From NCBI RefSeq assembly GCF_009795845.1, contig NZ_WTEX01000005.1:62001-126000 (forward strand): DNA of 64,000 nucleotides. Reading direction: 5' to 3'. A model generated the notes under the pieces. It was not told the DNA's origin and searched no databases. It saw only the letters and a list, made by a program, of their open reading frames with translations. This document shows, one piece after another, positions 11,963 to 46,435 of this stretch. The DNA is from Gilliamella sp. Lep-s35 (GTDB lineage: Bacteria; Pseudomonadota; Gammaproteobacteria; Enterobacterales; Orbaceae). Both the position numbers and the translations under genes were made by a program. Positions within the stretch are counted from its first letter, which is position 1. The number at the start of each line of letters is the position of its first letter.

Positions 11963-12727
11963 TTACTCCTTAAATAACGCTCTTACTTTTTCTAAATCTT
12001 CTAAAGTATCAACACCAATTGCAGGAGGTTGTTTTGCCACAGCGACATGAATCTTTTCACCGTACCAAAGTACTCTTAATTGTTCTAACATCTCAATTTG
12101 CTCAAGCGTTGATGGTGCCCATTTAATATATTGACGAATAAAGCCAGCACGATAAGCATAAATACCAATATGACGAAGATAAAAATCACCAATGCTAGAC
12201 GGTTTTAACTGTTCAGCTGATTTCGCAAAACGATCGCGTTCCCAAGGAATGGTAGCCCTTGAAAAATAAAGCGCATAACCATCTTTATCTGTCACAACTT
12301 TAACAGCACCCGTATTAAATGCTTCTTCAACAGAATCAATTGGCACAGCTAACGTTGCCATTCCCGTTTTATATTGCACTAAATTTTCAGCCACTTGGTT
12401 AATAATGATAGGCGGTATTAAAGGTTCATCGCCTTGTACATTAACAATAATTTCATCATCTGCAAATTGATAAGTATTAATCACCTCAGCTAACCTTTCA
12501 GTACCTGAATTATGCTTATCACTTGTCAGAATAACTTCTCCACCATACGTTTTGACTACATCAAAAACTTGCTGATGATCGGTTGCAATGATCACTCGAT
12601 TGGCTAAGGATTTTTTTGCTTGCTCCATTACACGCACAATCATAGGTTTTCCATGAATGTCCGCTAGCGGCTTAGCAGGTAAACGGCTTGAACCATATCT
12701 AGCAGGAATAATAACCGAAAAATTCAT
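11963..12727 (-). CDS. kdsB: CMP-KDO synthetase (3-deoxy-manno-octulosonate cytidylyltransferase)
   Basis: Activates KDO with CTP to CMP-KDO, the donor for the inner core of lipopolysaccharide. The 254-residue protein begins [20 protein letters not shown], the nucleotide-binding signature of the family, and contains [10 protein letters not shown] with the metal-binding region. Length agrees with E. coli KdsB (248). It lies 18 bp after ycaR in the same operon. Its presence together with lpxK and lpxH shows that the cell makes lipid A with KDO. Confidence 0.96.
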
Positions 12728-12934: not shown

Positions 12935-13942
12935 TTATTCTCTTTGGGAGTTTATCTTATCTAATAAGGAACAGATCTGCTCAATTGCTTGCACGGGTAT
13001 TACCGCATCAACGGGTAAATACCACCAATTTGGTTGAGCAAACTGCCTGCATTTAACCGCATCTTTTTCAGTCATTAAAAGAGTTTGGTTACAATTTGCA
13101 ATATCGTTTAATAATGACAACGTAAATTTTTGATGATCGGCAAAAGGAACGGTTTTTATCACATTCGTTTGCATTTTTATCAACATATCAAAAAAACGGT
13201 TCGGATGACTAATACCAGCAATAGCACAAATATTTTGTAATGAAGATAATGGTTTTCTTTCTTGAGTAAGCAAATTTACCGCGTATCGTGGTGCTAATTG
13301 CATACTGTAGGCCTTATTTGGGTATTTTTGAGCTAGGTTATTTATACTGTCACCATTTATAATAATCAAATCAACTGATTTTAATCGACTTTCTCGCTCT
13401 CGCATTGGTCCTGCTGGCATCCACCATCCATTACCAAATAAACGTTTTCCATCAACGACCACCACTTCAATATCGCGCGATAATGCATAATGTTGCAAAC
13501 CATCATCAGTTAAAATAACATCTAATTGATATTGCTTTAATAGTGCTTGAACAGCGTCAGAGCGGTGTGGAGATACAGCAATAGGCACATTAGTACGTTG
13601 ATAAATAAGTACAGGTTCATCACCGGCTTGTTCGGTTGTTGTTGTTTTATCTAAAATAAGAGGATAATTGTCAGACTTACCACCATAGCCTCGCGAAACC
13701 ACGCCAACTTGTAATCCTTTTTGTTTTAGTGATTCAATTAAACCAACAACTAGCGGTGTTTTACCATTACCACCAACGGATAAATTGCCAATAATAATAA
13801 TAGGTACGGGTGAATGCCAAGATTTTAAAATACCTAATCGATATAAAGAGCGACGAACAAAAACAATCAAACCATATAATAAAGAAAATGGTATGAGTAA
13901 CCAAAATAAACGATTTTTACCATACCATAGTTTTTCAATCAT
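12935..13942 (-). CDS. lpxK: Tetraacyldisaccharide 4'-kinase
   Basis: Phosphorylates the 4' position of the lipid A disaccharide at the inner membrane, using ATP. The N-terminal membrane helix is followed by the P-loop GNLSVGGNGKTPL near residues 52-64, and later by ILTDDGLQHYALSRD, both family signatures. I chose the ATG at 13942 (protein starts MIEKLWYGKN, like E. coli MIEKIWSGES), giving 335 residues; an in-frame TTG at 13960 would add six residues. In E. coli msbA lies directly upstream and is coupled to lpxK, but here comEC precedes it and msbA is absent from this spot. Confidence 0.95.
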   Translation of the reverse strand: MIEKLWYGKNRLFWLLIPFSLLYGLIVFVRRSLYRLGILKSWHSPVPIIIIGNLSVGGNGKTPLVVGLIESLKQKGLQVGVVSRGYGGKSDNYPLILDKTTTTEQAGDEPVLIYQRTNVPIAVSPHRSDAVQALLKQYQLDVILTDDGLQHYALSRDIEVVVVDGKRLFGNGWWMPAGPMRERESRLKSVDLIIINGDSINNLAQKYPNKAYSMQLAPRYAVNLLTQERKPLSSLQNICAIAGISHPNRFFDMLIKMQTNVIKTVPFADHQKFTLSLLNDIANCNQTLLMTEKDAVKCRQFAQPNWWYLPVDAVIPVQAIEQICSLLDKINSQRE

Positions 13943-14042
13943 AACTTTAACATCACTCAATTAAATTTAGTAAAATTGCGTATAACTTAATGTTGATATC
14001 ACAATTATAAAAATAGTCACTTATAACCAAAGATAGCTTATT

Positions 14043-16352
14043 TTACTCATAAATTGGTAAACTACCAAACCAATCATGATACCACCTAGGTTTAATTTCA
14101 CCTCGCATAGTTTTTAGTTGCCAAGTTTGTTTATCAAAAAATAAACTTATTTGCCCTGTTTTAGCTGTAACAGAACTATTTAGTTGTAAATCTTGATACC
14201 TTTTTATTACTTTAGTGGAAGGCAGCTTCCAAGGATTATAACGAGAAGTAGAAACTAATAACTTTACTGGTTTAACATGATTTAAAAATGGATAACTTGA
14301 TGAGGTATTACTACCGTGATGTGGCGCTTGTAAAATGGTTGAAGTTAGCTGGTTTCGGTATTTAGCCACTAATTGATACTCTTGATTGCGCTCTAAATCA
14401 CCCGTTAATAATACAGAAAACTGTCCATCACTAATTTGCACTACACAAGCGTCTTCATTTTGAGCATAATCAACTAATTTATTAGGCCATAACACATTAA
14501 ACGTTAGATCGTTCCAAATAAACTGATGACCGGCTAAACATGGATAGTCATTATTAAAACTAGAAGAAGAACTCATTAACCATGCTTTAGGATAAACACG
14601 TTGTAGCATATCCAAACCACCAACATGATCATTATGTTGATGGCTAATAATAATACCTTGTACATTTAAATTATGCCACTGTAAAAAAGGAATAATAACC
14701 CTTTCTACTGCTGAACTTTTTTCCCATTTAGTGCCTGTATCATACAAAATGGCTGACTTTCCGTCATGAATAACAATTGCCAACCCATGACCGACATCGA
14801 GCATATCTAACCGCCAGCGATAATTAGGTTTTTCAAAAATAGGCGTAATTAATAACATAAAAATAACAACAAGAGTAATGCTAAAACGGCGCCAAACTCC
14901 TGTGCGTATGATAACAACAGTAAGCCAACCTAAAAAACTTAACAAATAAAAATTGGCAGGAACTTTAAGCCATAGCAAATTGAACCAATTTAGACTAAAA
15001 AATAGCCACTCTAGTGATTTATCAGCAATCGACCAACACCATAATGCGATATAAAAACAGTCCATAAGACTAAATATCAACGCAAATAAAATAGCAGGAA
15101 AAGTGCATAACGAAATAATAGGGATGGCAATTAAATTAGTTAAAATAGAAACGACACTAACGCCCTGAAAAACAAAAAATTGAATAGGAAGCAATAACAA
15201 AGTTAAACCGAATTGCAAATGCAATAATCTAACCATGTACCAACGCTTTTTATACTTTATTTCTTGAGGTATTGGTAACCACTCAAATAAAAAAATTAAG
15301 CTAATTACTACATAACAAGACAACCAAAAACTTTCAGACAAAATTATCAATGGATCAAATAATAATAGCAATGCAATGATGCGGTTAATTTTTTGCCATG
15401 CGCTAATTTGATTTTTTTTATAACGCAAATAGATCCATATAGATAAAGCCAATATAGCTCGCAAAGTGGGGGGATTTAATCCAGTTAGCCATGCATAAAA
15501 AACTGCGGATAACCAACCGATTATAATAGGCACAAAAAAATAGATAAAACGTTTTGGGATAAAAAACAGAACAATCTTAACCAAAAAACAACTAAGCGTA
15601 AAAACGACTAAAATATGCATACCAGAGATTGCCATTAAATGAGCAACCCCGGTTTGCATCATCACCATACGATGGGATTCATCTAACTGAGAACGATCCC
15701 CAAACGCAAGCGCAAGCAATATGTCTCGATAATCAAACAAATCAATGTAAGGAAGTGCTAAATCAACAATAAATTGCCTTAAATTAGATTTGTCGTCTAA
15801 CAATTTTGCATCAACTAACTTTGCTGACAATAAACTTCGGTTTGCTATCGAAAAGCGCTGGCTGTCAAATCCCCCTTCATTAAGATAACTATGCACCACT
15901 TTGGTTTTTAACGTTAATTGCCAAGTTTGCCCTGATTTTGGCGTTGCTAGGTTATCCCAATAAACTGAAATAGGAATATCATTAGAAAGCGTAACACCTG
16001 AAATAGAAAAAATAGAAAATGACAAATAATAAGGCGATATTGTAGCTGCTTTTTGATGGGTATTGATATTTACAACTTTTGCTTTAACCACTAACGTTTT
16101 ATCAATATAAGGTGAAATATTGGTTAAATATTGCTTAGAATAAGCAACAGACCATAAAAAACTTAAACCAAATACAACAATAATAGATAAATTAAAGCGA
16201 AATTTAACTGGAACAACCAACATCAAAACAAGCAAAATAACAGCAATGAAATACCACTGAAGATCAGATAATAGATGTGGTAAAAACAGTAATGGTAAAC
16301 ACCCCAACGAAAACATGATAGCTAATAAATCAAGAGAATAAGATTGTCGCAT
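14043..16352 (-). CDS. comEC: ComEC/Rec2 DNA-uptake channel
   Basis: A 769-residue membrane protein that carries single-stranded DNA across the inner membrane during natural transformation. The N-terminus has several membrane spans, followed by a soluble loop (DUF4131-like), the polytopic Competence domain with FGDRSQLDESHR and GVAHLMAISGMHI, and a C-terminal beta-lactamase-fold nuclease-like domain with the metal motif ISHQHNDHVGG and later TGDLE. Length is normal for the family (E. coli YcaI 754). It is the first gene of the minus-strand run leading into lpxK. Whether the strain is competent cannot be judged from this window. Confidence 0.93.
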   Translation of the reverse strand: MRQSYSLDLLAIMFSLGCLPLLFLPHLLSDLQWYFIAVILLVLMLVVPVKFRFNLSIIVVFGLSFLWSVAYSKQYLTNISPYIDKTLVVKAKVVNINTHQKAATISPYYLSFSIFSISGVTLSNDIPISVYWDNLATPKSGQTWQLTLKTKVVHSYLNEGGFDSQRFSIANRSLLSAKLVDAKLLDDKSNLRQFIVDLALPYIDLFDYRDILLALAFGDRSQLDESHRMVMMQTGVAHLMAISGMHILVVFTLSCFLVKIVLFFIPKRFIYFFVPIIIGWLSAVFYAWLTGLNPPTLRAILALSIWIYLRYKKNQISAWQKINRIIALLLLFDPLIILSESFWLSCYVVISLIFLFEWLPIPQEIKYKKRWYMVRLLHLQFGLTLLLLPIQFFVFQGVSVVSILTNLIAIPIISLCTFPAILFALIFSLMDCFYIALWCWSIADKSLEWLFFSLNWFNLLWLKVPANFYLLSFLGWLTVVIIRTGVWRRFSITLVVIFMLLITPIFEKPNYRWRLDMLDVGHGLAIVIHDGKSAILYDTGTKWEKSSAVERVIIPFLQWHNLNVQGIIISHQHNDHVGGLDMLQRVYPKAWLMSSSSSFNNDYPCLAGHQFIWNDLTFNVLWPNKLVDYAQNEDACVVQISDGQFSVLLTGDLERNQEYQLVAKYRNQLTSTILQAPHHGSNTSSSYPFLNHVKPVKLLVSTSRYNPWKLPSTKVIKRYQDLQLNSSVTAKTGQISLFFDKQTWQLKTMRGEIKPRWYHDWFGSLPIYE

Positions 16353-32869: not shown

Positions 32870-33988
32870 ATGTCATTAGATATATCAATTATTGTACCTG
32901 TTTACAATTGTGATAAATATTTGAAAAAAAGTATAGATAGTTTATTAAACCAAACAATATCTAACATAGAAATCATTTGTATTGATGATGGATCCATTGA
33001 TGAGTCGCCTAACATTTTAAAAGATTATGCTAATAAGCATTCACGGATCATTTTGTTAATTCAAGAAAACAAAGGCCCGGCAATAGCTAGAAATAGAGGA
33101 CTAGCTATTGCACGAGGTGAATACATCATGTTTTGTGATAGCGATGATTGGTATGAGCCAACTATGTGCGAAAAAATGTTAGAAACAATAAGGCTAAAGA
33201 ATGTCGACATGGTTATGTGTAATTGTAATATAGTAAAATACGAAAAATCATATGACGCACGTGATGATGATATTAATTATCATAAACTAGATATTTTTGG
33301 GTATCATTCCTTAAATTTTGAGCTAAGACATAAAGTTAATAGTGTCCTTTGGAATAAAATCTTCAAAAAAAGTATTATTGATAAATTTAATATTGATTTT
33401 CCGTCAGGTCATTATCATGATGATATGGCATTTATTTTACAATACCTTTGTTCGTCAAAAAATTTGTATGGGATTGATTGTAATCTATATAATTATGTAT
33501 TTAGAAGCAATTCGATAATGCATCAAACTTATTTTACAGCAAATCATGAAAAAAAATTATTTGATGTAATTGATGCAATGAGATATTTCTATTTTAAATT
33601 ACTTGAAACTAATAATTTAGTTGGCCATAAGAAACTTTTTATTTCAAAGTTAGTTTCTATGATTCAATGGGTAATATTAAAATGCAATAACAATGAAGAA
33701 AAAATGATTAATTTTTTAAATTATTGTAATGATAAATTAATATTTGATTTAGATCTAAATATTTTTCCTGAAAGCGATGAACGTTATTACTTAAATATGG
33801 CAAAAGATAAAAATTACGATTTTTTTAAACGGTTATATAATTTTCAAAAAGAAAACAATATTCCTCATTTGAAACAGGTTAATAAAAAAACCAAAGTTAT
33901 TAAAGTAATTTTTAGAAAAATATTAGTTATTATTCGTAGTTATTTATTTTTTCCATACTATATTTATCGAATATATAAGAAATTATAA
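32870..33988 (+). CDS. Family 2 glycosyltransferase (tandem copy 1)
   Basis: A 372-residue GT2 protein with ISIIVPVYNCDKYLKKSIDS, ICIDDGSIDESP, NKGPAIARNRGLAIARGEY and FCDSDDWYEP (DxD metal site), followed by a helical C-terminal half ending in a basic, aromatic tail that may touch the membrane. A GAGG ribosome site precedes the ATG. The gene at 34746-35825 is a close relative over its whole length, with nearly identical segments around WYEPTMCEKMLETIR. The two are separated by transposase debris, so the locus was duplicated in tandem. Sugar specificity is unknown. Confidence 0.87.
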   Translation: MSLDISIIVPVYNCDKYLKKSIDSLLNQTISNIEIICIDDGSIDESPNILKDYANKHSRIILLIQENKGPAIARNRGLAIARGEYIMFCDSDDWYEPTMCEKMLETIRLKNVDMVMCNCNIVKYEKSYDARDDDINYHKLDIFGYHSLNFELRHKVNSVLWNKIFKKSIIDKFNIDFPSGHYHDDMAFILQYLCSSKNLYGIDCNLYNYVFRSNSIMHQTYFTANHEKKLFDVIDAMRYFYFKLLETNNLVGHKKLFISKLVSMIQWVILKCNNNEEKMINFLNYCNDKLIFDLDLNIFPESDERYYLNMAKDKNYDFFKRLYNFQKENNIPHLKQVNKKTKVIKVIFRKILVIIRSYLFFPYYIYRIYKKL

Positions 33989-34200: not shown

Positions 34201-34571
34201 CGTCAAAATATTAGCCAGTTTCCTCGTTTTGTAGTAACAGTCATGAATAATATGTGTTTTGAGTGTATGGAAAAAAACTCTCAACAACCGCATTATTAAA
34301 GCAGTTGCCTTTTTGACTTATGCCTTTGCCCATATTGTAACAATAACTGCTTGAAATCAGCACTGCAATACTTGCTTCCTTGGTCACTATGAATGAGTAA
34401 ATTTTTAGGAAAGTGACGCCGAAATGAGGCTTGTTTTAATGTATTACATACTAAATGACGGTCTATGTAGCGACTGGTTTGCCTAGCAATCACTTTTCGT
34501 CCATATAAATCGATAATCACCGACAAATATAACCAACCTTCACCCGTTTTAATGTTAGGCATAATAACCAA
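34201..34571 (-). pseudogene. IS3-family transposase (orfB) fragment
   Basis: On the minus strand 34571-34296 encodes part of the integrase core: KTGEGWLYLSVIIDLYGRKV, HLVCNTLKQASFRR, LLIHSDQGSKYCSADF. After a frameshift the reading continues as SQKGNCFNNAVVES with the catalytic Glu region, and after another as FFHTLKTHIIHDCYYKTRKLAN. The first catalytic Asp region and everything before it are missing. Two frameshifts and lost ends show a dead remnant. Confidence 0.8.
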
Positions 34572-34745: not shown

Positions 34746-35825
34746 ATGTCACCGGTAATATCAATTATTGTACCAGTATTTAATTGCGATAGTTTTCTTG
34801 AAAAAAGTATTACTAGCTTAATTAATCAAACTTTTGAAAATATTGAAATTATATGTATTAATGATGGTTCTAAAGATAATTCGTTAGCTATTTTGAATGA
34901 TTTCTCACAAAAAGATAAGCGAATAATTGTTATTGACCAAAAAAATAGTGGACCAGCTGAAGCAAGAAATAAAGGATTAAAAAAGGCTCGTGGTGAGTAC
35001 ATTATGTTTTGTGATGGTGATGATTGGTATGAACCAACAATGTGTGAAAAAATGTTGGAAACTATTCGATCTAAAAGTGTTGATTTAGTAATATGCAGTT
35101 GTAATGTTGTCAAAGATGAACAAACTTATAATTTGCGTGATAGTGATATTGATTATCATAAGTTGACTTATTATGGTCTTCATTCCCTAACGTATCCATT
35201 TAAAACTCGAGTTAATAGTGTTCTTTGGAATAAAATTTTCAAAAAGAGTATTATTGAACAATACAATATAGACTTTCCTTCAGGTTATTACCATGATGAT
35301 ATGGTATTTGTATTACAATATCTTTGTTGTTCAAAAACAATTTATGCTATTGATATTCATCTTTATAATTATTTACTTCGAAGTAACTCTATCATGCATC
35401 AAACATATTTTTCACCTAAAGACCGGAAAAAAATGTTTGATACAATAGATGTAATGAAATATTTTCTTATAAAGCTTTCAGATAACAACTTATTAAATGA
35501 TAATAAAGCTTATTTTATTGTAATATTATCGGGATTAATAAAATGGATCGTGAGTATATTAAGCAGTAAAGAAGAAATTAATTTCTTTTTAGATTACTGT
35601 AATGAGACTATATTATTTGATTTAGATCTTGATTATTTTCCTGATATTGAAAATAAATCCCATTTGTTAAATATAAAAAATAAATATTATCAACCTTTTT
35701 ATCAAGAGGACAATAAAAAGAAAAGAAATAAGCCAGTTAAAAAATTTATCAAAAAAGTATTAACTTTTAGTTTTTCTTATTTTCTTTTCCCTTATTATAT
35801 TTATAAAATTTATAAAAGAATGTAA
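34746..35825 (+). CDS. Family 2 glycosyltransferase (tandem copy 2)
   Basis: A 359-residue GT2 protein, the paralogue of the gene at 32870-33988. It shows ISIIVPVFNCDSFLEKSITS, ICINDGSKDNS, NSGPAEARNKGLKKARGEY and FCDGDDWYEP; here the second residue before the DD pair is Gly, where copy 1 has Ser. The rest, including RVNSVLWNKIFKKSIIEQYN and DFPSGYYHDDM, follows copy 1 closely. A GAGGA sits six bases before the ATG. The divergence suggests an old duplication with possibly separate acceptors. Confidence 0.87.
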   Translation: MSPVISIIVPVFNCDSFLEKSITSLINQTFENIEIICINDGSKDNSLAILNDFSQKDKRIIVIDQKNSGPAEARNKGLKKARGEYIMFCDGDDWYEPTMCEKMLETIRSKSVDLVICSCNVVKDEQTYNLRDSDIDYHKLTYYGLHSLTYPFKTRVNSVLWNKIFKKSIIEQYNIDFPSGYYHDDMVFVLQYLCCSKTIYAIDIHLYNYLLRSNSIMHQTYFSPKDRKKMFDTIDVMKYFLIKLSDNNLLNDNKAYFIVILSGLIKWIVSILSSKEEINFFLDYCNETILFDLDLDYFPDIENKSHLLNIKNKYYQPFYQEDNKKKRNKPVKKFIKKVLTFSFSYFLFPYYIYKIYKRM

Positions 35826-35982: not shown

Positions 35983-36927
35983 GTGATTTATAAGAAAGTA
36001 GAAAAGGGTGATATTCGTTATTATCAAATTTTCGGATTAAATTGTGTTAAAGTTGTAAATTCGAAAAAACTAATGTGTATTTATATTTTTGGTTTTAGAA
36101 TTTTGAAAAGAGTGAAATTAAAATATCTTAAATCGCTTACTGAAAAATTGGTAAATGAAATTAGTATTATTCGAACTGAGAATGCGACTAGATATGAACA
36201 ATTGGAAAAAACTATAAATAATTTATCTAAAAATATTGATAACCAATGTAATGTTTTGCGTTTGAATATTAATAATATCAATACTTATTCAAAAGCCCAT
36301 ATGGAAAGTTTTTCTGGTTTTAAAGAGAAATTTTTAGGGCAAGATATAGTAATTTTATGTACGGGTCCAACGCTTGCCAAATACCGGCCAATTGAAAAAA
36401 CTATCAATATCGGAGTAAATAGGGCTTTCAGGCGTTATGACATTAGTCTTGATTTTATTTTTATTCAAGATATCACAGGTCTTAAAAATGATATTGATGC
36501 TATAAATAATTATAATCCTGAAACATGTCAAAAATTTTATGGAAGTAGCATAACTTTTGGTGCTTCCATACCCGAAAAAGACTTAATTAAAGCTAATGCT
36601 AAACGATATTATGTTGGTAACTTTTTTACTGACTTTTATCCTGATATTACATCTTCAGTGTTTCCTGAATATGGTTCCGTTGTATTTTCAGCACTAACAT
36701 TTGCACTTTATACCCATCCCAAACGAATTTATTTGGTTGGATGTGATGCATGCCAAAATGGTTATTTTGATAATGATGACCAAGCAGCATTCTCTTCTAA
36801 TATTGACTTTCTTTTAAATGGGTGGCACGCATTTAAAAAATTCAAAGATCAGTTTTATCCTGATGTGGAAATAGTTTCTATAAATCCAGTAGGATTGAAA
36901 GGAGTTTTTAAAGATGTTTATCAATAG
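35983..36927 (+). CDS. Glycan-locus protein with coiled coil and transferase-like domain
   Basis: A 314-residue protein of uncertain family. The first 45 residues (KKVEKGDIRYYQIFGLNCVK, then YIFGFRILKRVK) resemble the short N-terminal segment found in several surface-glycan enzymes. Residues about 46-105 form a likely coiled coil. From about 120 comes a domain starting GQDIVILCTGPTLAKYRPIE with IGVNRAF, DFIFIQD and later RIYLVGCDACQNGYF, a nucleotide-type fold reminiscent of DUF115/MAF-like or sialyltransferase-like proteins. It starts with GTG at 35983 behind an AAGAG. Its place among transferases makes a glycosyltransferase the best guess, but no specific family is assigned. Confidence 0.55.
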   Translation: MIYKKVEKGDIRYYQIFGLNCVKVVNSKKLMCIYIFGFRILKRVKLKYLKSLTEKLVNEISIIRTENATRYEQLEKTINNLSKNIDNQCNVLRLNINNINTYSKAHMESFSGFKEKFLGQDIVILCTGPTLAKYRPIEKTINIGVNRAFRRYDISLDFIFIQDITGLKNDIDAINNYNPETCQKFYGSSITFGASIPEKDLIKANAKRYYVGNFFTDFYPDITSSVFPEYGSVVFSALTFALYTHPKRIYLVGCDACQNGYFDNDDQAAFSSNIDFLLNGWHAFKKFKDQFYPDVEIVSINPVGLKGVFKDVYQ

Positions 36928-37366: not shown

Positions 37367-39103
37367 ATGCCCAAAAAATATAATTCTTTGACTGCGCTTA
37401 TACAACTATGGCCATTTGTCAAACAATATAAAAAAGCTTTATTTGTTGCTATACTAGGGCTTTTGTTAAATGCAGCTACAGATTCGACCTTAATATCTCT
37501 AACCAAACCGTTGCTAGATAATGGTTTAATGAATAAAAACTACATTTTGTTAGTTTACATTGCTATAGCAATTATTGGTTTGATTGCATTACGTGGATTG
37601 TCAAATTATGCTTCTACATACTGTCTTTCATGGTTATCTGGTAAAGTTATAACTAAATTTAGACAAATGATATTTAATCATTTGCTAAAAAGTCCTGTAA
37701 GTTTTCATGATAAACATTCTGTGGGTGATCTTGTTTCCATTATTACTTATAATACTCAAATGCTTTCTAAAGCCTCATCCGATGCTTTAATTATTCTTGT
37801 TCGTGAAATAACCTATGCGATTGGTTTATGTTTTGTTATGTTTTATGGTAGTTGGAAATTGGCATTAGTGCTAATTTTTCTTATACCATTAATAATTGGT
37901 GTTGCTCAATTTATTGCAAAAAAATTTAGAAAAACATTAATGTCAATGCAAAAAGGTATGGGGGAAATAACAACTTCGGCTGATGAAATGTTAAAAGGCC
38001 ATAAAGATGTTTTAATTTTTAATGCTAAAGAATATGAAAAAAATAATTTTAATAAAATTACTAATATTTTTCGGCGAGATATGTTGAAGATTGAAATGGT
38101 TTCAAGATTATCAACACCGATCATTCAAATGATTGCAACTTTAGGTTTAGCTTTAATATTATATCTTGTTGCAAGCCAAAGTTTAGATATTACACCAGGA
38201 TCTTTTACTGTCGTTTTTTCAGCAATGATAGCTATAATGCGTCCTTTACGAGAGTTAACAAGCCTACATGTTGAATTACAAAAAGGTGCTGTAGCGTGTG
38301 AATCATTATTTGGGCTGTTAGAAGCTCCACTTGAAGAAGATAAAGGCACAATTGATGCAAATCATATAACTGGAAATATTGAATTTAGAGATGTGACCTA
38401 TCAATACCCTACAACCAGTACTTCTGTTCTTAATAATATTAATTTTAAAATTGAGGCAGGCCAAACGATTGCTTTAGTTGGGCGATCAGGTGCAGGTAAG
38501 TCAACCATTGCAAGTTTAATTCCAAGATTTTATGATTTAGAAAAAGGAGAAATACTTTTAGATGGTATTAATATTAAAGATTATACTTTAAAATCATTAA
38601 GAAACCAGATTGGGTATGTTTCTCAAAGGGTACACTTATTTAATGGTACTATTGCAGATAACATTGTTTATGGTGAAAAAGGATTACATAGCCAAGAAGA
38701 AATAATTAAGGTTGCTGAACTAGCTAATGCCATGGAGTTTATAAATAAACTAGAAAATGGAATTGATACAGAAATAGGAGATAATGGTGTTTTATTATCA
38801 GGAGGACAGCGGCAACGCATTGCTATTGCGAGAGTTTTGTTACGTAATAATCCAATTTTAATTTTGGATGAAGCGACTTCAGCACTAGATAATGAATCTG
38901 AAAGGCTAGTACAAGAAGCCATTGAAGTTTTACAAAAAAATAGAACTTCGATTGTTATTGCTCATAGATTATCAACCATTGAAAAAGCGGATCGAATTTT
39001 AGTCATTGATAATGGTGAAATTGTAGAAGATGGTAATCATCATAGTCTTATTGAACAAAATGGTATTTATGCCTTAATGCATAAAATGCAATTCAAATCA
39101 TAA
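37367..39103 (+). CDS. MsbA-like lipid exporter, ABC half-transporter (first of two)
   Basis: A 578-residue half-transporter with six membrane spans and an ATPase domain. Walker A GRSGAGKS is at residues 372-379, then YVSQRVHLFNGTIADN (Q-loop), LLSGGQRQRIAIAR (signature), ILILDEATSALD (Walker B) and IVIAHRLST (H-loop). Over its length it resembles MsbA, and the end YALMHKMQF is like E. coli YAQLHKMQF. The membrane domain is more diverged than in the next gene. It could export lipid A-core, form a heterodimer with its neighbour, or flip a lipid-linked oligosaccharide as the MsbA-like PglK does in Campylobacter. These options are inference. Confidence 0.88.
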   Translation: MPKKYNSLTALIQLWPFVKQYKKALFVAILGLLLNAATDSTLISLTKPLLDNGLMNKNYILLVYIAIAIIGLIALRGLSNYASTYCLSWLSGKVITKFRQMIFNHLLKSPVSFHDKHSVGDLVSIITYNTQMLSKASSDALIILVREITYAIGLCFVMFYGSWKLALVLIFLIPLIIGVAQFIAKKFRKTLMSMQKGMGEITTSADEMLKGHKDVLIFNAKEYEKNNFNKITNIFRRDMLKIEMVSRLSTPIIQMIATLGLALILYLVASQSLDITPGSFTVVFSAMIAIMRPLRELTSLHVELQKGAVACESLFGLLEAPLEEDKGTIDANHITGNIEFRDVTYQYPTTSTSVLNNINFKIEAGQTIALVGRSGAGKSTIASLIPRFYDLEKGEILLDGINIKDYTLKSLRNQIGYVSQRVHLFNGTIADNIVYGEKGLHSQEEIIKVAELANAMEFINKLENGIDTEIGDNGVLLSGGQRQRIAIARVLLRNNPILILDEATSALDNESERLVQEAIEVLQKNRTSIVIAHRLSTIEKADRILVIDNGEIVEDGNHHSLIEQNGIYALMHKMQFKS

Positions 39104-39114
39104 TATATTAAATA

Positions 39115-40887
39115 ATGAATATGAATCAGAATAATCATAAAGAAAGTATCAATATTGATAAGGACTCTTCAACTTGGTGTACTTTTACTAAGTTATGGCC
39201 CTATATTGCTCAACATAAATTAGTATTATTTATATCAATAATTTTGTTAATAATTAGTGCATTTGCCGATACTTCATTAATAGGCCTATTGCGCCCTTTA
39301 CTCGATCTTGGTTTTTCAATGAATGACCGAGAGTTTTTATATATGGCACCTATCTATATTTTTGGTTTAGTGTTTATTCGTGGTATTGCTAATTATGGTT
39401 ATTCTGTATTATTAGCATTGATCTCTGGTAAAATTGTCATGCGCATTCGACAAAGGCTTTTTGCACATTTTGTTGATGCACCTGTAAGTTTTTACGATCA
39501 ATCCTCAACAGGAAGGTTATTGTCACGAATAACATATGATACAGATCAGGTCGCAGCGTCTTCATCGGATGCTTTAATTACTATAATTCGTGAATCAGCT
39601 TTTATATGTGGGCTATTTTATACAATGTTTTATAATAGTTGGCAATTATCACTATCTTTACTTGTTGTCACTCCTATTGTAATTGGATTAATTTCTTTTA
39701 TTTCAGTAAAATTTAGAAAATTGGCAAAAAACATGCAAAATTCTATGGGAAATGTCACCATGGCAGTTGAGCAAATGCTAAAGGGATATAGAGAAATTAT
39801 TGTTTTTGGTGCGCAGAATGAAGAATCGAAAAATTTTGAAAAAGTTAGCAATAAATTCCGCCGTGATGGAATGCGCTTAGTTTCTATCTCCGCACTATCA
39901 ACGCCAATAATACAATTGGTGATCTCATTTGCCATTGCTTTTGTGTTATTAACCGCAAGTGATCCTGATTTAAATATTACAGCTGGAGAATTTACTGTCG
40001 TTTTTTCATCTCTAGTAGCATTGATGCAACCTATTAAAAATTTAACCAGTGTTAATGCAAACTTCCAAAAAGGAATGGCAGCTTGTCAAACTTTATTTGC
40101 AATTTTTGAACAACCTTTAGAAAAAGATAATGGATCTATTAGTGTTGATCGTGTAAAAGGAAATATTGTATTTGATCACGTTACTTTTAGTTATGAAACT
40201 AGAAAAGAACCAGCTCTTAAAGACATTAGTTTTTCTGTTCCAGCAGGAAAAACAATTGCTTTAGTTGGTCGCTCAGGTTCAGGAAAAACGACAATAGCAA
40301 GTTTACTTACTCGCTTCTATGATATATCTAAAGGACAAATTTTAATTGATGGACATAACATTCATGATTTCACATTACATTGTTTACGAGATCAAATAGG
40401 TTTAGTATCACAAAATATTCATCTTTTTAACGATACAATAGCGAATAATATCGCCTATGGAAGAATTGGTGAATATACGCAACAACAAATAGAAGAAGCT
40501 GCAAAAAAAGCCTACGCTTATGATTTTATAATGCAAAGTGAGCATGGGTTTAATACTAAAGTGGGAGAAAGTGGAATACTATTATCTGGTGGGCAAAGGC
40601 AAAGAATAGCAATTGCACGAGCGCTATTACGTGATAATCCTATATTGATTTTAGATGAAGCTACATCAGCCTTAGATACTGAGTCAGAATATGCAATACA
40701 ACAAGCGCTTTCTGAACTACAAAAAGGGCGTACTTCAATTGTTATTGCGCATCGATTATCAACCATTGAGAATGCAGATGAAATACTAGTTATTGATGCT
40801 GGGGAGATTATAGAACAGGGAACACATCATGAATTACTTCTCAAAGATGGTGTTTATAATAAATTATATCAAGCAAATCACTTATAG
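39115..40887 (+). CDS. msbA: Lipid A exporter MsbA (second of the tandem pair)
   Basis: A 590-residue ABC half-transporter that should flip lipid A-core from the inner to the outer leaflet of the inner membrane. The start of the conserved part, STWCTFTKLWPYIAQHK, matches E. coli STWQTFRRLWPTIA, and SRITYDTDQVAASSSDALIT matches SRITYDSEQVASSS, closer than in the upstream copy. Walker A GRSGSGKT is at residues 385-392, and the signature LLSGGQRQRIAIARALL and DEATSALD follow. It starts 11 bp after the first copy. In E. coli msbA precedes lpxK, so this gene has been relocated relative to that order. Confidence 0.88.
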   Translation: MNMNQNNHKESINIDKDSSTWCTFTKLWPYIAQHKLVLFISIILLIISAFADTSLIGLLRPLLDLGFSMNDREFLYMAPIYIFGLVFIRGIANYGYSVLLALISGKIVMRIRQRLFAHFVDAPVSFYDQSSTGRLLSRITYDTDQVAASSSDALITIIRESAFICGLFYTMFYNSWQLSLSLLVVTPIVIGLISFISVKFRKLAKNMQNSMGNVTMAVEQMLKGYREIIVFGAQNEESKNFEKVSNKFRRDGMRLVSISALSTPIIQLVISFAIAFVLLTASDPDLNITAGEFTVVFSSLVALMQPIKNLTSVNANFQKGMAACQTLFAIFEQPLEKDNGSISVDRVKGNIVFDHVTFSYETRKEPALKDISFSVPAGKTIALVGRSGSGKTTIASLLTRFYDISKGQILIDGHNIHDFTLHCLRDQIGLVSQNIHLFNDTIANNIAYGRIGEYTQQQIEEAAKKAYAYDFIMQSEHGFNTKVGESGILLSGGQRQRIAIARALLRDNPILILDEATSALDTESEYAIQQALSELQKGRTSIVIAHRLSTIENADEILVIDAGEIIEQGTHHELLLKDGVYNKLYQANHL

Positions 40888-40968: not shown

Positions 40969-42045
40969 ATGAGTATTAAAAGAATTGTTACAGATTGTGC
41001 TTGTTTATTTGTGAAAGATAAAAAAAAGAAATATTTCCTAACCAAAAAGTATGGTAGCACTCCACCGTATATTTTGTCTAAAAAGAAAGCTAAAGTATAT
41101 CAAGATATTTATATTCCTATTTATAAACATAATGTTCGATTATGCCCTGTTGAGCCTGAAATTTATAATAAAAAAGGAGAAAGATTAAGAGTTATTTTTT
41201 TGAGAGATAATTATAAACCTAATGCATCCTCACAAACAAGTAATCTGATATATTGGGATAAATATAATTTTGAACTTCCATTACATCTTTATACTCATGG
41301 ACGCATGTTGGAGACAATGGGATCTCCAACTGGCCGTTTTGGTGCTTTGGTTGAAACTAAAGGTATAAAACCTGATAGTTATGAAATATTTCAAAAATAT
41401 AGAGGGTTAGAGAAAGATTTTGATTTAATTTTTACTTATGATGAACAACTTCTTAATGATATACCTAACGCAAGATTCGTTCCTTTTTGTGCCGATATAA
41501 AGCTTTTTTCTGGCGATTTTGTAATGCGACCAAACTTAGATGAAATATTTCAACAAAATTTGTTTTATGAAAAAAATAAACATATCTCAATGTTATCGTC
41601 AGATAAAAAATTATGTGAATTGCATCTAAAAAGAATTTTGACAGCAATTAAATTAAAAAAGCATCCTAAGGTAGATACTTTTGGAACTTTTGATGGCGGA
41701 GAGTTTGTTAATCCTTATGAAACATTGAAAGATTACCGTTATTCTATTGTGTTTGAAAATGAAATATCTGGGTATTGTTTTACTGAAAAATTGACAAATT
41801 GTTTTGCTACTCAAACTGTACCGATTTATATAGGTGCTAGTAAAATAGATCAATTTTTTGATGAAGATGGTATTATTAGGGTTAAAGAAAGCGAAATTGA
41901 TAACATAGAAAATATTATCAAACAATGTTCAGAAGCTGATTATATATCCAGAAAAAACGCAATTATGAAAAATTTCATGACTGTTCAACAATTTAGTAAT
42001 AATGAAGACTATATGTACAAAACATATATAGAAGGTTATTTTTAA
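40969..42045 (+). CDS. Family 10 (fucosyltransferase-type) glycosyltransferase
   Basis: A 358-residue GT-B enzyme. The C-terminal half contains YRYSIVFENEISGYCFTEKL followed by QTVPIYIGASKI, the GT10 donor-binding signature (FEN...GYxTEK...PIYxG). The N-terminal half has the acceptor-side pattern with FDLIFTYDEQLL and FVPFCAD. GT10 members are alpha-1,3/1,4-fucosyltransferases using GDP-fucose. No GDP-fucose genes (gmd, fcl) are in this window, so either they lie elsewhere or the donor differs. The gene is part of a same-strand run of transferases from here to 46435. Confidence 0.85.
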   Translation: MSIKRIVTDCACLFVKDKKKKYFLTKKYGSTPPYILSKKKAKVYQDIYIPIYKHNVRLCPVEPEIYNKKGERLRVIFLRDNYKPNASSQTSNLIYWDKYNFELPLHLYTHGRMLETMGSPTGRFGALVETKGIKPDSYEIFQKYRGLEKDFDLIFTYDEQLLNDIPNARFVPFCADIKLFSGDFVMRPNLDEIFQQNLFYEKNKHISMLSSDKKLCELHLKRILTAIKLKKHPKVDTFGTFDGGEFVNPYETLKDYRYSIVFENEISGYCFTEKLTNCFATQTVPIYIGASKIDQFFDEDGIIRVKESEIDNIENIIKQCSEADYISRKNAIMKNFMTVQQFSNNEDYMYKTYIEGYF

Positions 42046-42153: not shown

Positions 42154-43134
42154 ATGATAGATGTAACTAAGTTTATAGAAGATAAAAAAACTATTATTGG
42201 TAATGAAAGTAATGATACTGATACACAATGGCATATTTTGCTATGCTTTGATGATAATTACGCTTTACCTGCTGGTGTTAATATGTATTCTATTATTAGC
42301 AATAATCCAAATAAAAAATTACATTTTCATTTATTTATGCAAAACGTATCAAATGATAATAAATGTAAAATAGAACAGCTTTCATCAAATCATGTTTCAA
42401 TAACGCAATACTATCTGAATGATAAATTTAAGATTCACGCTAACAATACAAAATATTTCCCTATTTCTGCTTGCCTGCGAATTATTGCTCCATTAGTTAT
42501 TCCCAAAGAAGTAACTAAATTACTTTATGTTGATAGTGATACTTTATGTTTGGCATCATTAGATCAACTGTTTAGTTTAAATATAGCTGATAAAATTATT
42601 GCTGCTGTGCCAGATGTTGAAAATACACAAAATTCCCAATGTAAAAAATTTCAAATTGAGTATGGTAGTTATTTTAATTCAGGAGTTTTGTTATACAACT
42701 TGAAAAAGTGGAATGAAGCTAATATCACAGAAAAAGCACTTAAGTTATTAAATGAGGGGATTGCTTATAAATTTCCCGATCAGGATGTGCTAAATATTTT
42801 ATTAAGTAATAATATTTATTATTTACCCACAAAATATAATTGTCTTACTTTATTAAGTGTTGGTGGCCATGAAGATCAACAAAAAGCTGAAACAGGTGCA
42901 GTTTTTATACATTATACTTCGGGCAGTAAACCTTGGTTCAAACTCTATTTGACATCAACTTATCAAAAATTCATTGATGGCTCACCTTGGTATCAAGCCA
43001 AGCTAGCCTTAGCCAATAATCTTTCCCCCTCTACAACTAGACGTTATGCTAAATTTTTAATCACTCAAAGAAAATATCTCCGTGCTTTTCTTTACTATTT
43101 GTTATATTTAAAACATAAGTTGCTAAAAAAATAA
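42154..43134 (+). CDS. Family 8 glycosyltransferase (copy 1)
   Basis: A 326-residue retaining GT8 enzyme of the LgtC/WaaJ type. Residues about 30-60 carry the start of the fold (HILLCFDDNYALPAGVNMYS), then ISACLRIIAPLVIP, the metal motif LYVDSDTLC (DxD), YFNSGVLLYNLKKW, FPDQDVLN and the C-terminal FIHYTSGSKPW. The end is basic, hydrophobic and may associate with the membrane. Such enzymes add glucose or galactose to lipopolysaccharide cores from UDP-sugars. The gene at 44267-45220 is a related GT8. Confidence 0.88.
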   Translation: MIDVTKFIEDKKTIIGNESNDTDTQWHILLCFDDNYALPAGVNMYSIISNNPNKKLHFHLFMQNVSNDNKCKIEQLSSNHVSITQYYLNDKFKIHANNTKYFPISACLRIIAPLVIPKEVTKLLYVDSDTLCLASLDQLFSLNIADKIIAAVPDVENTQNSQCKKFQIEYGSYFNSGVLLYNLKKWNEANITEKALKLLNEGIAYKFPDQDVLNILLSNNIYYLPTKYNCLTLLSVGGHEDQQKAETGAVFIHYTSGSKPWFKLYLTSTYQKFIDGSPWYQAKLALANNLSPSTTRRYAKFLITQRKYLRAFLYYLLYLKHKLLKK

Positions 43135-43224: not shown

Positions 43225-44214
43225 ATGAATAATACTCCTCTTATATCCGTAATTATACCAGCATACAATACAAGAGATGTTATTGAAAAAACATTAAAAT
43301 CAATAGAAGCTCAAACCTATCAAAATTATCAAATAATCATTATAGATGATGGCTCCACTGATGGTACAGGCCTATTTATAGATGAATACCAACAAAAAAA
43401 TGTTAAAACTATTGTTTATCATCAGAATAACAGTGGTGTGTCTGCTGCCAGAAATAATGCTATCAAATATGCTTCAGGTGAGTTCATCTGTTTTTTAGAT
43501 AGTGATGATACTTATGAATCTTCTTTTTTTGAGAAAATGTTAATTCGCCAACAACAAACCAATTTTAACATTGTTTATTGCGGTTTTTATCGAGTAAAAA
43601 AGAATAGAAGTATTAAAGAATACTTACCCTTTGAAGAAGGAAATATACTTAATAGTTTTATCAAAAAAAGTTTTCATATTTCAGGTATGATAATTAAGCG
43701 TTCTTTTTTACTCGATAAAAATATTACTTTTGATACTGATCTTAAAATTTGTGAAGATATTTTTTTTACTATTAAAGCTATAAGCCAATGCGAAGTGGCT
43801 GTAGTTAAAGATCATTTATTCAACTATTTATATAGAGAAAAATCGGTAACAAATTCAATTGCTACCATTGAATTATATTTACAGAATATAGTAACTTGGG
43901 AACGGATTGAGTATTATCTGATGCATAACTACAATAAAAACGACAAAGAAGAGATTCATCAACGAGTTCAATCTATAGTAGTTAAATTAAAAGTAAGGCT
44001 TCTTATTGAATATTTAAAAAAATTTAATTATAAAAAAATTTATTATTATCTAAATAAAGATATTAAATTTACTACTGATATGAAATTGGTAAATAAAAAG
44101 TACTTACCAAAAAGTGATATAAAAAAAATGAATATAATAAAAAGTAATTGTCTAGTCATTTGGTTTTGGGGTAGTTTGTACTACCGATATATCAGGCGTG
44201 AAAATGCAAAATAA
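43225..44214 (+). CDS. Family 2 glycosyltransferase
   Basis: A 329-residue GT2 protein: LISVIIPAYNTRDVIEKTLK, IIIDDGSTDGTG, NNSGVSAARNNAIKYASGEF and FLDSDDTYES in the first 105 residues, with CEDIFFTIKA further on. It lies between the two GT8 genes and is only distantly similar to the tandem GT2 pair. The C-terminus is strongly basic with aromatic residues (WFWGSLYYRYIRR), which may anchor it at the membrane. Its donor is unknown. Confidence 0.86.
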   Translation: MNNTPLISVIIPAYNTRDVIEKTLKSIEAQTYQNYQIIIIDDGSTDGTGLFIDEYQQKNVKTIVYHQNNSGVSAARNNAIKYASGEFICFLDSDDTYESSFFEKMLIRQQQTNFNIVYCGFYRVKKNRSIKEYLPFEEGNILNSFIKKSFHISGMIIKRSFLLDKNITFDTDLKICEDIFFTIKAISQCEVAVVKDHLFNYLYREKSVTNSIATIELYLQNIVTWERIEYYLMHNYNKNDKEEIHQRVQSIVVKLKVRLLIEYLKKFNYKKIYYYLNKDIKFTTDMKLVNKKYLPKSDIKKMNIIKSNCLVIWFWGSLYYRYIRRENAK

Positions 44215-44266: not shown

Positions 44267-45220
44267 ATGAAAAATGAAGTGATAAATATAGCCTTTTGTA
44301 CTGATGGTAATTATCTCGAATATGTAGCTATAGCAATAAAATCAATTCAATTAAATAATTTAGGTAACGATCTTCAATTTCATGTATTTCTTTATGATGT
44401 TCCCAAAGAGGCCTTTCATAAATTACAAAAATTAAATGTTTCTATTAAAAGTTATTTTATTGAAAACAATGAATTAGATAAATATCAAACTGAACACCAA
44501 TTACAGCATATCAATCGTTCAATGTATATTCGACTACTTGTACCTCGATTACTGAAGAATGAAGTTGATAAATTTATATATTTGGATGCTGATATATTAT
44601 GTTTTCGTGATATATCATCAATTAATCAGATTGATATTGATTCAGTGGTTTGTGCTGTTGTCTCTGACTCTCTAATTTCAAAAAATATTGAAAAAAATAT
44701 TACTCGTTTGGAGTTAAGTTCAGATAATTATTTTAATTCTGGTTTTCTCTATATTAATACAAAAAATTGGTGTGATTCTGACATAGAAAATAAAGTTAAT
44801 TTAGTTTTGTTAAATCCGCAACGATATAGACTTGTTTATCCTGATCAGGATGCTTTAAATCTTATTCTTCAAAATAAAGTTAAGTATATTGATTGTAGAT
44901 GGAATTATTTATTTACATGGATGACTGAAACAGAAAAGAATAAAATCTTTGATAATGAAGATATTCTACCATTTTTTATCCACTTTACAGGTGCCAGAAA
45001 ACCTTGGTATCAAGAACATAAAGGAATAGCACAAAATTTATATGTATTTTACAAGCATTTTACACCATGGGCTAATAAACCTTTAGAAAGCTACCTACCC
45101 AGAATGAGAGTTAATGACTATCGTATATATGCGAAATCATTCTTTAGAAACGGTGACTTTTATAAAGGAATAAAATTTTTCATTAAATACTTATTATTAA
45201 AATTCAGAAAAAAGAAATAA
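44267..45220 (+). CDS. Family 8 glycosyltransferase (copy 2)
   Basis: A 317-residue GT8 protein with INIAFCTDGNYLEYVAIAIK, MYIRLLVPRLL, the DxD motif IYLDADILCF, YFNSGFLYINTKNW, YPDQDALNLIL and HFTGARKPWYQ. The order of motifs is that of WaaO/WaaJ-like core glucosyl- or galactosyltransferases. It resembles the gene at 42154-43134 in each motif, so the two are probably an old duplication. An AAGGA is close before the ATG. Confidence 0.88.
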   Translation: MKNEVINIAFCTDGNYLEYVAIAIKSIQLNNLGNDLQFHVFLYDVPKEAFHKLQKLNVSIKSYFIENNELDKYQTEHQLQHINRSMYIRLLVPRLLKNEVDKFIYLDADILCFRDISSINQIDIDSVVCAVVSDSLISKNIEKNITRLELSSDNYFNSGFLYINTKNWCDSDIENKVNLVLLNPQRYRLVYPDQDALNLILQNKVKYIDCRWNYLFTWMTETEKNKIFDNEDILPFFIHFTGARKPWYQEHKGIAQNLYVFYKHFTPWANKPLESYLPRMRVNDYRIYAKSFFRNGDFYKGIKFFIKYLLLKFRKKK

Positions 45221-45241: not shown

Positions 45242-46435
45242 ATGAGTCATTTTTCTTGGCAATTAAAGTTTATTCGAAAAAAAATAAAACTATATTTTTT
45301 TAACTTTTTAAATAAAATTCTAATGTATTTTTTTCCTAAAAGAAAAACGATATTTGAACCGTCAAAAATAAAAACTATTTTAATAGCTCGTAATGATAAA
45401 ATTGGTGATATGGTTGTAACTACCGCTTTAATAAAAAATCTTGCTCAAGCTGGTTATGATGTTTATGTTTCTTCGCAACAATCAAGTTTAGATATTCTTA
45501 AAAATAATCCTAATGTTAAAGCTACATTTAGTTATAATGATTATTCGTTAAAGGATTTATTTAAAACTATACAAACAATCAGAAAGCATCATTTTGATTT
45601 AGTAATTGATACAAGACCATTTTATTCATTTGAAATGCGTAAAATTATATTTTGTGCATTTACTAACTCAACTCATTTGATGGGATTTAATAAAAGTAAT
45701 GTAAAATCATATAATATTTCAATTCCTTATTATAATAATAATGTTCATATTACTAATCAGTTAAATAAAATATATGAGTATATGAACATTAAAAATTATG
45801 ATGAAAACTATGATCTTTATACTTTAGATAATAATAAAAAAAATGTTGATAATTTTATATTAGAAAATAATATAGATAAATTTGTTATTATTAACCCTTT
45901 TGGTGGAGCAAGAAAGCGTGAATTGTCTCAATGGCAAATGGAGCATATTGTTTCACTCATGAAAAAAAACAAACCAGATCATAAAATTATTTTTATTGGT
46001 GAACCCAATAAACTTAAAAATGTTAAACTTGACTTAGGATTAATATTTCAATCAAATACCATTTTAGATGTCATTGCTTTAATCAAAAAAGCTGAATATG
46101 TTATTACTGTTGATACTTCTATAGTGCATATTACAGCAGCATTCAATAAACCATGTTTAACCATTTATTCAGAATCAAATCTATTTGAACAAACAGACGA
46201 TTTTAATTTAATAATGCGTAAAAAATGGAAAGACTATTACCGACAAACGTGTAATAATTTGGTAGATAGTTCCTATTTGAAAAAAAATAATCTATTAGTA
46301 GAAATACCATATTGCTATGATCAAATTTGGTCTCCTAATAATCCAAATGCGAAACAAATTGTATTTTATAAAACTTTTTTAGCAAAAGTAGACAATGATG
46401 AATTTAGCAGATGTATATCACCTTATTTAGGATAA
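45242..46435 (+). CDS. Family 9 (heptosyltransferase-like) glycosyltransferase
   Basis: A 397-residue GT-B protein of the WaaC/WaaF/WaaQ superfamily. After a basic, aromatic N-terminus of about 40 residues, the fold starts KTILIARNDKIGDMVVTTAL (the conserved R-x-D-x-GD pattern), with DLVIDTRP, FVIINPFGGARKRELSQW and VITVDTSIVHITAAFNKP, the donor-site signature. GT9 enzymes transfer heptose to lipopolysaccharide core; this one is divergent, so another donor is possible. It is the last gene of the glycan locus on this side, 22 bp after the GT8 gene, and points to a core or lipooligosaccharide role for the run. Confidence 0.85.
   Translation: MSHFSWQLKFIRKKIKLYFFNFLNKILMYFFPKRKTIFEPSKIKTILIARNDKIGDMVVTTALIKNLAQAGYDVYVSSQQSSLDILKNNPNVKATFSYNDYSLKDLFKTIQTIRKHHFDLVIDTRPFYSFEMRKIIFCAFTNSTHLMGFNKSNVKSYNISIPYYNNNVHITNQLNKIYEYMNIKNYDENYDLYTLDNNKKNVDNFILENNIDKFVIINPFGGARKRELSQWQMEHIVSLMKKNKPDHKIIFIGEPNKLKNVKLDLGLIFQSNTILDVIALIKKAEYVITVDTSIVHITAAFNKPCLTIYSESNLFEQTDDFNLIMRKKWKDYYRQTCNNLVDSSYLKKNNLLVEIPYCYDQIWSPNNPNAKQIVFYKTFLAKVDNDEFSRCISPYLG

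Follow-up and report, generated by a model that had tools for sequence, protein, structure and literature searches.

A DUF115/MptE-like protein with a GT42-type predicted fold in a Gilliamella surface-glycan cluster, a possible CMP-ulosonate glycosyltransferase

Introduction

There are several described systems with which the protein studied here can be compared. First, WaaZ is the KdoIII transferase of the E. coli lipopolysaccharide (LPS) core (NCBIfam TIGR04437 and NF007333); PMC6358824 describes it as transferring a third Kdo. Second, the Maf glycosyltransferases act on flagellin and have three domains, according to PMC11339370, in which the Pfam domain PF01973 is named Maf_flag10; the same paper reports that a Maf protein with this domain transfers both Kdo and Neu5Ac, from CMP-Kdo and CMP-Neu5Ac. 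Third, the GT42 family includes Cst-I, CstII and the Pasteurella protein of structure 9c08. Fourth, archaeal MptE (structure 8sd5) is a 6-hydroxymethyl-7,8-dihydropterin pyrophosphokinase. Finally, Acinetobacter KdoT adds a third Kdo from CMP-Kdo, an activity like that proposed below, but it is modeled as a two-domain GT-B enzyme, a fold that differs from the one predicted here (PMC12856342).

How does the Gilliamella locus compare? The window is a 64,000-nucleotide stretch of the genome of Gilliamella sp. Lep-s35, and one gene in its glycan cluster encodes a long predicted helix followed by a DUF115/MptE-like domain. Searches of the literature on Gilliamella and glycans returned nothing on this locus (35983–36927), and those on the DUF115/PF01973 family yielded nothing of use. 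With confidence somewhat short of even, we propose that the gene encodes a helix-tethered CMP-ulosonate glycosyltransferase of GT42-like fold that acts on lipooligosaccharide (LOS), the donor most likely being CMP-Kdo made by KdsB. What the analysis shows is the gene, its domain family and fold class, the GT8 fusion in one relative, the neighborhood, and KdsB without a NeuB match; the activity, the CMP donor, the choice of Kdo over other sugars, the LOS acceptor and the tethering are inferred.

The gene and its orthologues

The gene and the parts of its product are as follows.

35983..36927, + strand: gene studied; 314 aa, GTG start, stop codon included
35983..36066, + strand: N-terminal residues 1–28, low-confidence segment (pLDDT 34–41)
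36067..36300, + strand: long predicted helix, residues 29–106 (structure model; heptad test marginal); site of a 29-residue insertion in L007
36301..36924, + strand: MptE-like/GT42-fold domain, residues 107–314 (Pfam, profile-profile and structure comparison)
36358..36375, + strand: CTGPTL loop, residues 126–131, presumed nucleotide-binding (corresponds in the alignment to the GPS loop of CstII and the WaaZ-like proteins)
36412..36429, + strand: GVNRAF, residues 144–149 (N146 hardly varies across the superfamily alignment)
36673..36771, + strand: GSVVF...IYLVGCD...YFD, residues 231–263 (D255 invariant in the superfamily alignment)

This open reading frame is a genuine gene of a Gilliamella-type genome. 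An orthologue in Gilliamella sp. Choc5-1 (L006) is 99% identical, and one in Gilliamella sp. Choc4-2 (L007) is 88% identical. The latter protein has 343 residues, with the insertion lying within its helical part, and its gene has an ATG at the position of the window's GTG. Between the window protein and L007, residues 107–314 show 46 synonymous and 16 non-synonymous codon differences, with 51 of the 70 base changes at codon position 3, whereas residues 1–106 show 19 synonymous and 22 non-synonymous differences. The shared start position and this codon pattern of selection identify the frame as genuine, and the two ratios indicate that the C-terminal domain is constrained while the helical part is drifting. 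A first-pass annotation of the window had the coordinates and frame right, and its motifs are present in the protein: ILCTGPTLAKYRPIE at residues 124–138, IGVNRAF at 143–149 and VGCDACQNG at 252–260. It also described the N-terminal segment (residues 1–28) as short, which it is. In a fused relative (L004, described below), the GT8 part is separated from the helical part by a similar F/L-G-I/F-R/K stretch. By eye, short stretches of the type Y/F-x-F/L-G-I/L-K/R recur, sometimes twice, at the ends or joints of glycan enzymes, for example in residues 1–45 of the window protein, at the GT8–helix joint of L004 and at the C-termini of L004:2329–3420 and L059:6578–8530; a pattern scan found few of them in the window.

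The same annotation expected a coiled coil of about 60 residues. The helix itself is predicted (residues 29–106, block pLDDT about 41–82), but the support for a true coiled coil is weak: compared with shuffled sequences, two stretches of the window protein are marginally enriched in heptads (p 0.046 and 0.067), and no enrichment is seen in L007 (p 0.71) or L004 (p 0.90 and 0.95). Within the domain, the TGP loop and the N146, D255 and YFD positions are retained across the subfamily; L004 and L012 have Q or L in place of H282.

With the window protein as query, matches were found in 4 of 198 relatives' genomes, all of them Gilliamella and including the window's own, and a four-row profile, run on 394 genomes from the order, gave matches in 7, the three new ones being more distant. 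The Gilliamella genomes with query-type genes are G000, G001, G008 and G020. Promoter-like sites around the gene number 9, against 12.5 in shuffles, and no terminator-like site was found there. Phage and plasmid collections gave no tblastn match at E ≤ 0.01, and no relative was confirmed on viral contigs, whether these were scanned with A1 (the query alignment), with L012 or with L013. Two other alignments did reach distant relatives on viral contigs: one of small DUF115 proteins gave 12 loci, and a viral one gave 21, several of them on contigs that had already been hit. PHROGs gave two matches, both at E about 0.1, which were set aside. On three viral contigs (L047, L051 and L054), a single frame carries a small DUF115-type domain and, after it, a stretch that by eye resembles a GT2-type domain.

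Placement in the DUF115/MptE-like superfamily

Where does the C-terminal domain belong? Residues ~107–314 belong to the DUF115/MptE-like (PF01973) superfamily, with a fold common to GT42, Maf and archaeal MptE; we take PF01973 and DUF115 to be the same family. First, residues 97–258 match Pfam MptE-like at E 1.1e-6 and 29.0 bits. This is below the curated cut-off of 34.6 bits, as is the score of E. coli WaaZ (29.6 bits), and the Pfam scan of the window protein listed only this family and one chance match. Thus, the protein can be placed, contrary to the first-pass annotation, albeit by a match below the curated threshold. Second, a shallow profile built from the four members of the query subfamily (the window protein, L007, L004 and L012) was compared by hhalign with other groups, giving 97.4% over 203 columns for ten WaaZ-like proteins, 96.7% over 133 columns for six small DUF115 proteins and 93.3% over 148 columns for six Maf-like proteins, against 0.3% and 0.1% for GT2 and dehydrogenase-type controls. 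Most of the WaaZ-like members were gathered with a profile that already held one WaaZ-like row (L014), so that grouping depends in part on the query. Third, when a 20-row superfamily alignment was searched against PDB sequences, it found CstII (4e-11), MptE (3.8e-5), 9c08 (6.1e-5), Cst-I (1.6e-4) and Maf (0.022). Together with the structure comparison below, these results bear out, at the level of the superfamily, the earlier suggestion of a DUF115- or sialyltransferase-like C-terminal domain. The accompanying suggestion of a new transferase type goes too far, given that the superfamily already holds WaaZ and Maf and its fold is common with GT42.

Within the superfamily, the window protein forms a distinct branch and, judged by its sequence, is no WaaZ. 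The subfamily profile, scored one way outside the subfamily, ranks L013 first (68.1 bits) and L014 next (37.6 bits), after which viral, WaaZ-like and small DUF115 proteins come intermixed; small DUF115 and viral members score like many WaaZ-like ones. E. coli K-12 WaaZ, an annotated record that NCBIfam identifies as KdoIII transferase, resembles the window protein in its sub-threshold Pfam match and in its LPS/LOS gene neighborhood, but scores only 10.7 bits with the subfamily profile (E 3.4 for a nominal database of 200000) and, by length and alignment, apparently lacks the long N-terminal helix. The window protein matches neither TIGR04437 nor NF007333, and no NCBIfam family at E ≤ 1, so assignment to WaaZ proper was rejected. 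Assignment to GT42 proper was rejected as well: the window protein alone finds nothing in the PDB by sequence at E ≤ 1, and the query subfamily finds nine PDB sequences at E ≤ 10, with no GT42, Maf or MptE chain among them. Nor is it a Maf protein proper, since the three-domain architecture is absent from a 314-residue protein with one helix and one domain, found in a glycan cluster.

Predicted fold

A full-length AlphaFold2 model built from 12 sequences (pLDDT 61, pTM 0.53) has the helix at residues 29–106 followed by an alpha/beta domain. All 17 of its Foldseek PDB matches at E ≤ 0.001 are CstII, 9c08 or MptE, the best being CstII at E 1.4e-5, with low TM-scores of 0.23–0.50 and rmsd of 5.7–9.9 Å. 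VIA-align gives Z scores of 12.0 for MptE (8sd5), 12.0 for Cst-I (2p2v), 11.8 for CstII, 11.8 for the central domain of Maf (5mu5) and 11.7 for 9c08; SteA (10.8), thiamine pyrophosphokinase (9.6) and mammalian sialyltransferases (about 8) score lower. The TGPT loop aligns with the GxGPS-type loop of the superfamily, and the modeled fold is that of the superfamily, at a pLDDT of only 61. A second model, of the domain only and from 20 sequences, is poorer than the full-length one (pLDDT 60.6): Foldseek finds no PDB match at E ≤ 0.001, although CstII still takes the top ranks, and VIA-align returns the same families with a best Z of 7.8, GT42 chains reaching 7.5. A viral structure library returned distant unnamed phage proteins and a few named MptE-like. 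Because the top VIA-align rows tie at Z ~12, the fold cannot separate a transferase from a pyrophosphokinase.

Gene neighborhood

The gene stands in a run of surface-glycan genes, all on the + strand.

32870..33988, + strand: GT2 glycosyltransferase, upstream neighbor
34746..35825, + strand: GT2 glycosyltransferase, immediate upstream neighbor
37367..39103, + strand: MsbA, first of two adjacent copies (TIGR02203, 721.8 bits; cut-off 602)
39115..40887, + strand: MsbA, second copy (TIGR02203, 724.8 bits)
40969..42045, + strand: GT10 family (fucosyltransferase C-terminal domain)
42154..43134, + strand: GT8 with GT8C domain
43225..44214, + strand: GT2 glycosyltransferase
44267..45220, + strand: GT8 with GT8C domain; two other Gilliamella have an alignable GT8 adjoining WaaZ-like genes
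45242..46435, + strand: GT9 (heptosyltransferase family)

Thus, two GT2 genes precede the gene studied, and two adjacent MsbA genes, GT10, GT8, GT2, GT8 and GT9 follow it. These MsbA proteins are the only two of 54 matches in the genome that exceed the family cut-off. No Wzy_C protein was found, and this, with the MsbA pair, fits a rough lipooligosaccharide rather than an O-antigen. Elsewhere in the window (12935–16352), a comEC-like gene (14043–16352) adjoins an lpxK-like gene (12935–13960) without an msbA between them; in E. coli, msbA sits between comEC and lpxK. Between the two upstream GT2 genes, an open frame on the − strand (34296–34571) contains an HSDQGSKY stretch and looks, by eye, like an IS3-type transposase fragment.

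In Gilliamella G001, a 755-residue protein (L004:22–2289, the same as L059:8560–10827) is a fusion of an N-terminal GT8 (E 4.5e-30), a long polar segment and a C-terminal MptE-like domain, and its gene lies upstream of two MsbA-like genes (named by eye). L012, another subfamily member, adjoins a GT9-family protein. L013, the nearest relative outside the subfamily, has three such neighbors: an aldolase (HMGL-like), a phosphatase (HAD) and a CTP_transf_3 protein (58.8 bits). This set, spanning L061:9264–13273 in genome G386 together with the MptE-like gene, looks like an unnamed pathway that makes an ulosonic acid and activates it with CMP. The C-terminal half of the aldolase carries another GPGPS-type loop.

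Elsewhere, WaaZ-like relatives have waaA (L014) or waaC (L031) as a neighbor or stand between waaS and waaO (L030). In Gilliamella, WaaZ-like genes are found in 5 of 35 genomes; three of the five matches are each reported with a single internal stop codon, and two of the proteins are 40–42% identical to E. coli WaaZ. Three of the genes (L072, L073 and L074) stand directly after a GT8 gene and are bordered on the other side by a heptosyltransferase-like gene of opposite orientation. Along its length, the GT8 found in L072 and L073 can be aligned with window 44267–45220; superfamily ulosonate transferases therefore adjoin relatives of genes in this cluster.

Donor sugar and alternative functions

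Which sugar might be transferred? One further gene of the window bears on the choice.

11963..12727, − strand: KdsB-like CMP-Kdo synthetase, presumed maker of the donor (PF02348, 242.1 bits, match 12050–12715; named by reading)

The genome has no NeuB match, in a search that detects this protein in 9 of the 14 genomes used as controls, and its two further CTP_transf_3 matches, just over the cut-off at 29.1 and 23.1 bits, read as GlmU and IspD. Among CMP-ulosonates, only CMP-Kdo is visibly made in this genome. With KdsB present and NeuB not found, CMP-Kdo is the likely donor. There is also evidence that fits a glycosyltransferase with this fold, at this locus, that takes another donor, whether a CMP-sugar supplied through unrecognized genes or uptake or a UDP-, GDP- or dTDP-sugar, and that acts on LOS or another surface glycan. 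The cluster region holds, as read from sequence, dTDP-rhamnose, UDP-glucose dehydrogenase and UDP-glucuronate decarboxylase-like genes; the fold does not reveal donor specificity, and the query subfamily differs from WaaZ. However, the nearest characterized transferases in fold (GT42 and Maf, with WaaZ by annotation) use CMP-ulosonates, and L013 adjoins a cytidylyltransferase. We regard a different donor as a realistic but minority prospect.

A pyrophosphokinase, or another small-molecule enzyme that uses ATP, is very improbable. It is what the Pfam name MptE (6-hydroxymethylpterin diphosphokinase) hints at: PF01973 is the sole meaningful family match, and MptE ties for the best structural match, with thiamine pyrophosphokinases further down the same ranking. 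Against this, MptE is a pterin enzyme, whereas the window protein sits among surface-glycan genes and has a cousin fused to GT8, and E. coli WaaZ, an annotated Kdo transferase, scores like the window protein on PF01973. A transferase is favored by the GT2, GT8, GT9, GT10 and MsbA neighbors, the GT8-fused cousin and the L013 neighborhood. Finally, a degenerate, non-catalytic member that serves as a helical scaffold or adaptor for neighboring glycosyltransferases would account for the long helix of variable length, the GT8 fusion and the lack of a conserved histidine at the GT42 place, but is very improbable given the retained TGP loop, N146, D255 and YFD positions and the stronger selection on the domain (46:16) than on residues 1–106 (19:22).

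Proposed mechanism

If the protein is a CMP-Kdo transferase, how might it work? With GT42 as the analogy, CMP-Kdo would be held through its nucleotide by the TGPT loop of the C-terminal domain, and N146, D255, Y261 and the region of S232 would surround the donor. The sugar would then pass to a hydroxyl of nascent LOS at the cytoplasmic face of the inner membrane, and MsbA would flip the sugar-bearing lipid. No catalytic base was identified, and the GT42 histidine (which we take to be His188 of CstII) is unmatched in the profile alignment: its column holds Asn279 in the window protein and Pro in E. coli WaaZ, in a stretch where the alignment is uncertain. The long N-terminal helix may place the enzyme near partner transferases or the membrane. 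The first-pass annotation had suggested tethering by a coiled coil. A tether or spacer is possible, in view of the variable length of the helix and the GT8 fusion in one strain; the coiled-coil signal is weak.

A more specific version of this proposal, which we consider rather unlikely, is that the gene represents an unrecognized CMP-Kdo transferase subfamily that replaces WaaZ in some Gilliamella and is coupled with a GT8 core transferase, joined by the helix here and as a bifunctional GT8–Kdo fusion in G001. Mutual exclusion with WaaZ was considered as support and set aside: the four query-type genomes and the five WaaZ-like ones do not overlap, but if both counts refer to the same 35 genomes, chance alone would keep them apart in roughly every second case.

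Implications

What are the implications of this placement? First, proteins labeled "DUF115" or "pterin kinase-like" in surface-glycan loci are connected by it to WaaZ, Maf and GT42, which are ulosonate transferases. Second, "MptE-like" in a surface-glycan locus should not be taken for pterin synthesis. Third, if the proposal holds, the natural GT8 fusion would provide a handle on the coupling of core transferases. Finally, if the proposal is true, some bee-gut symbionts would add an extra acidic sugar to their lipooligosaccharide, bypassing WaaZ.
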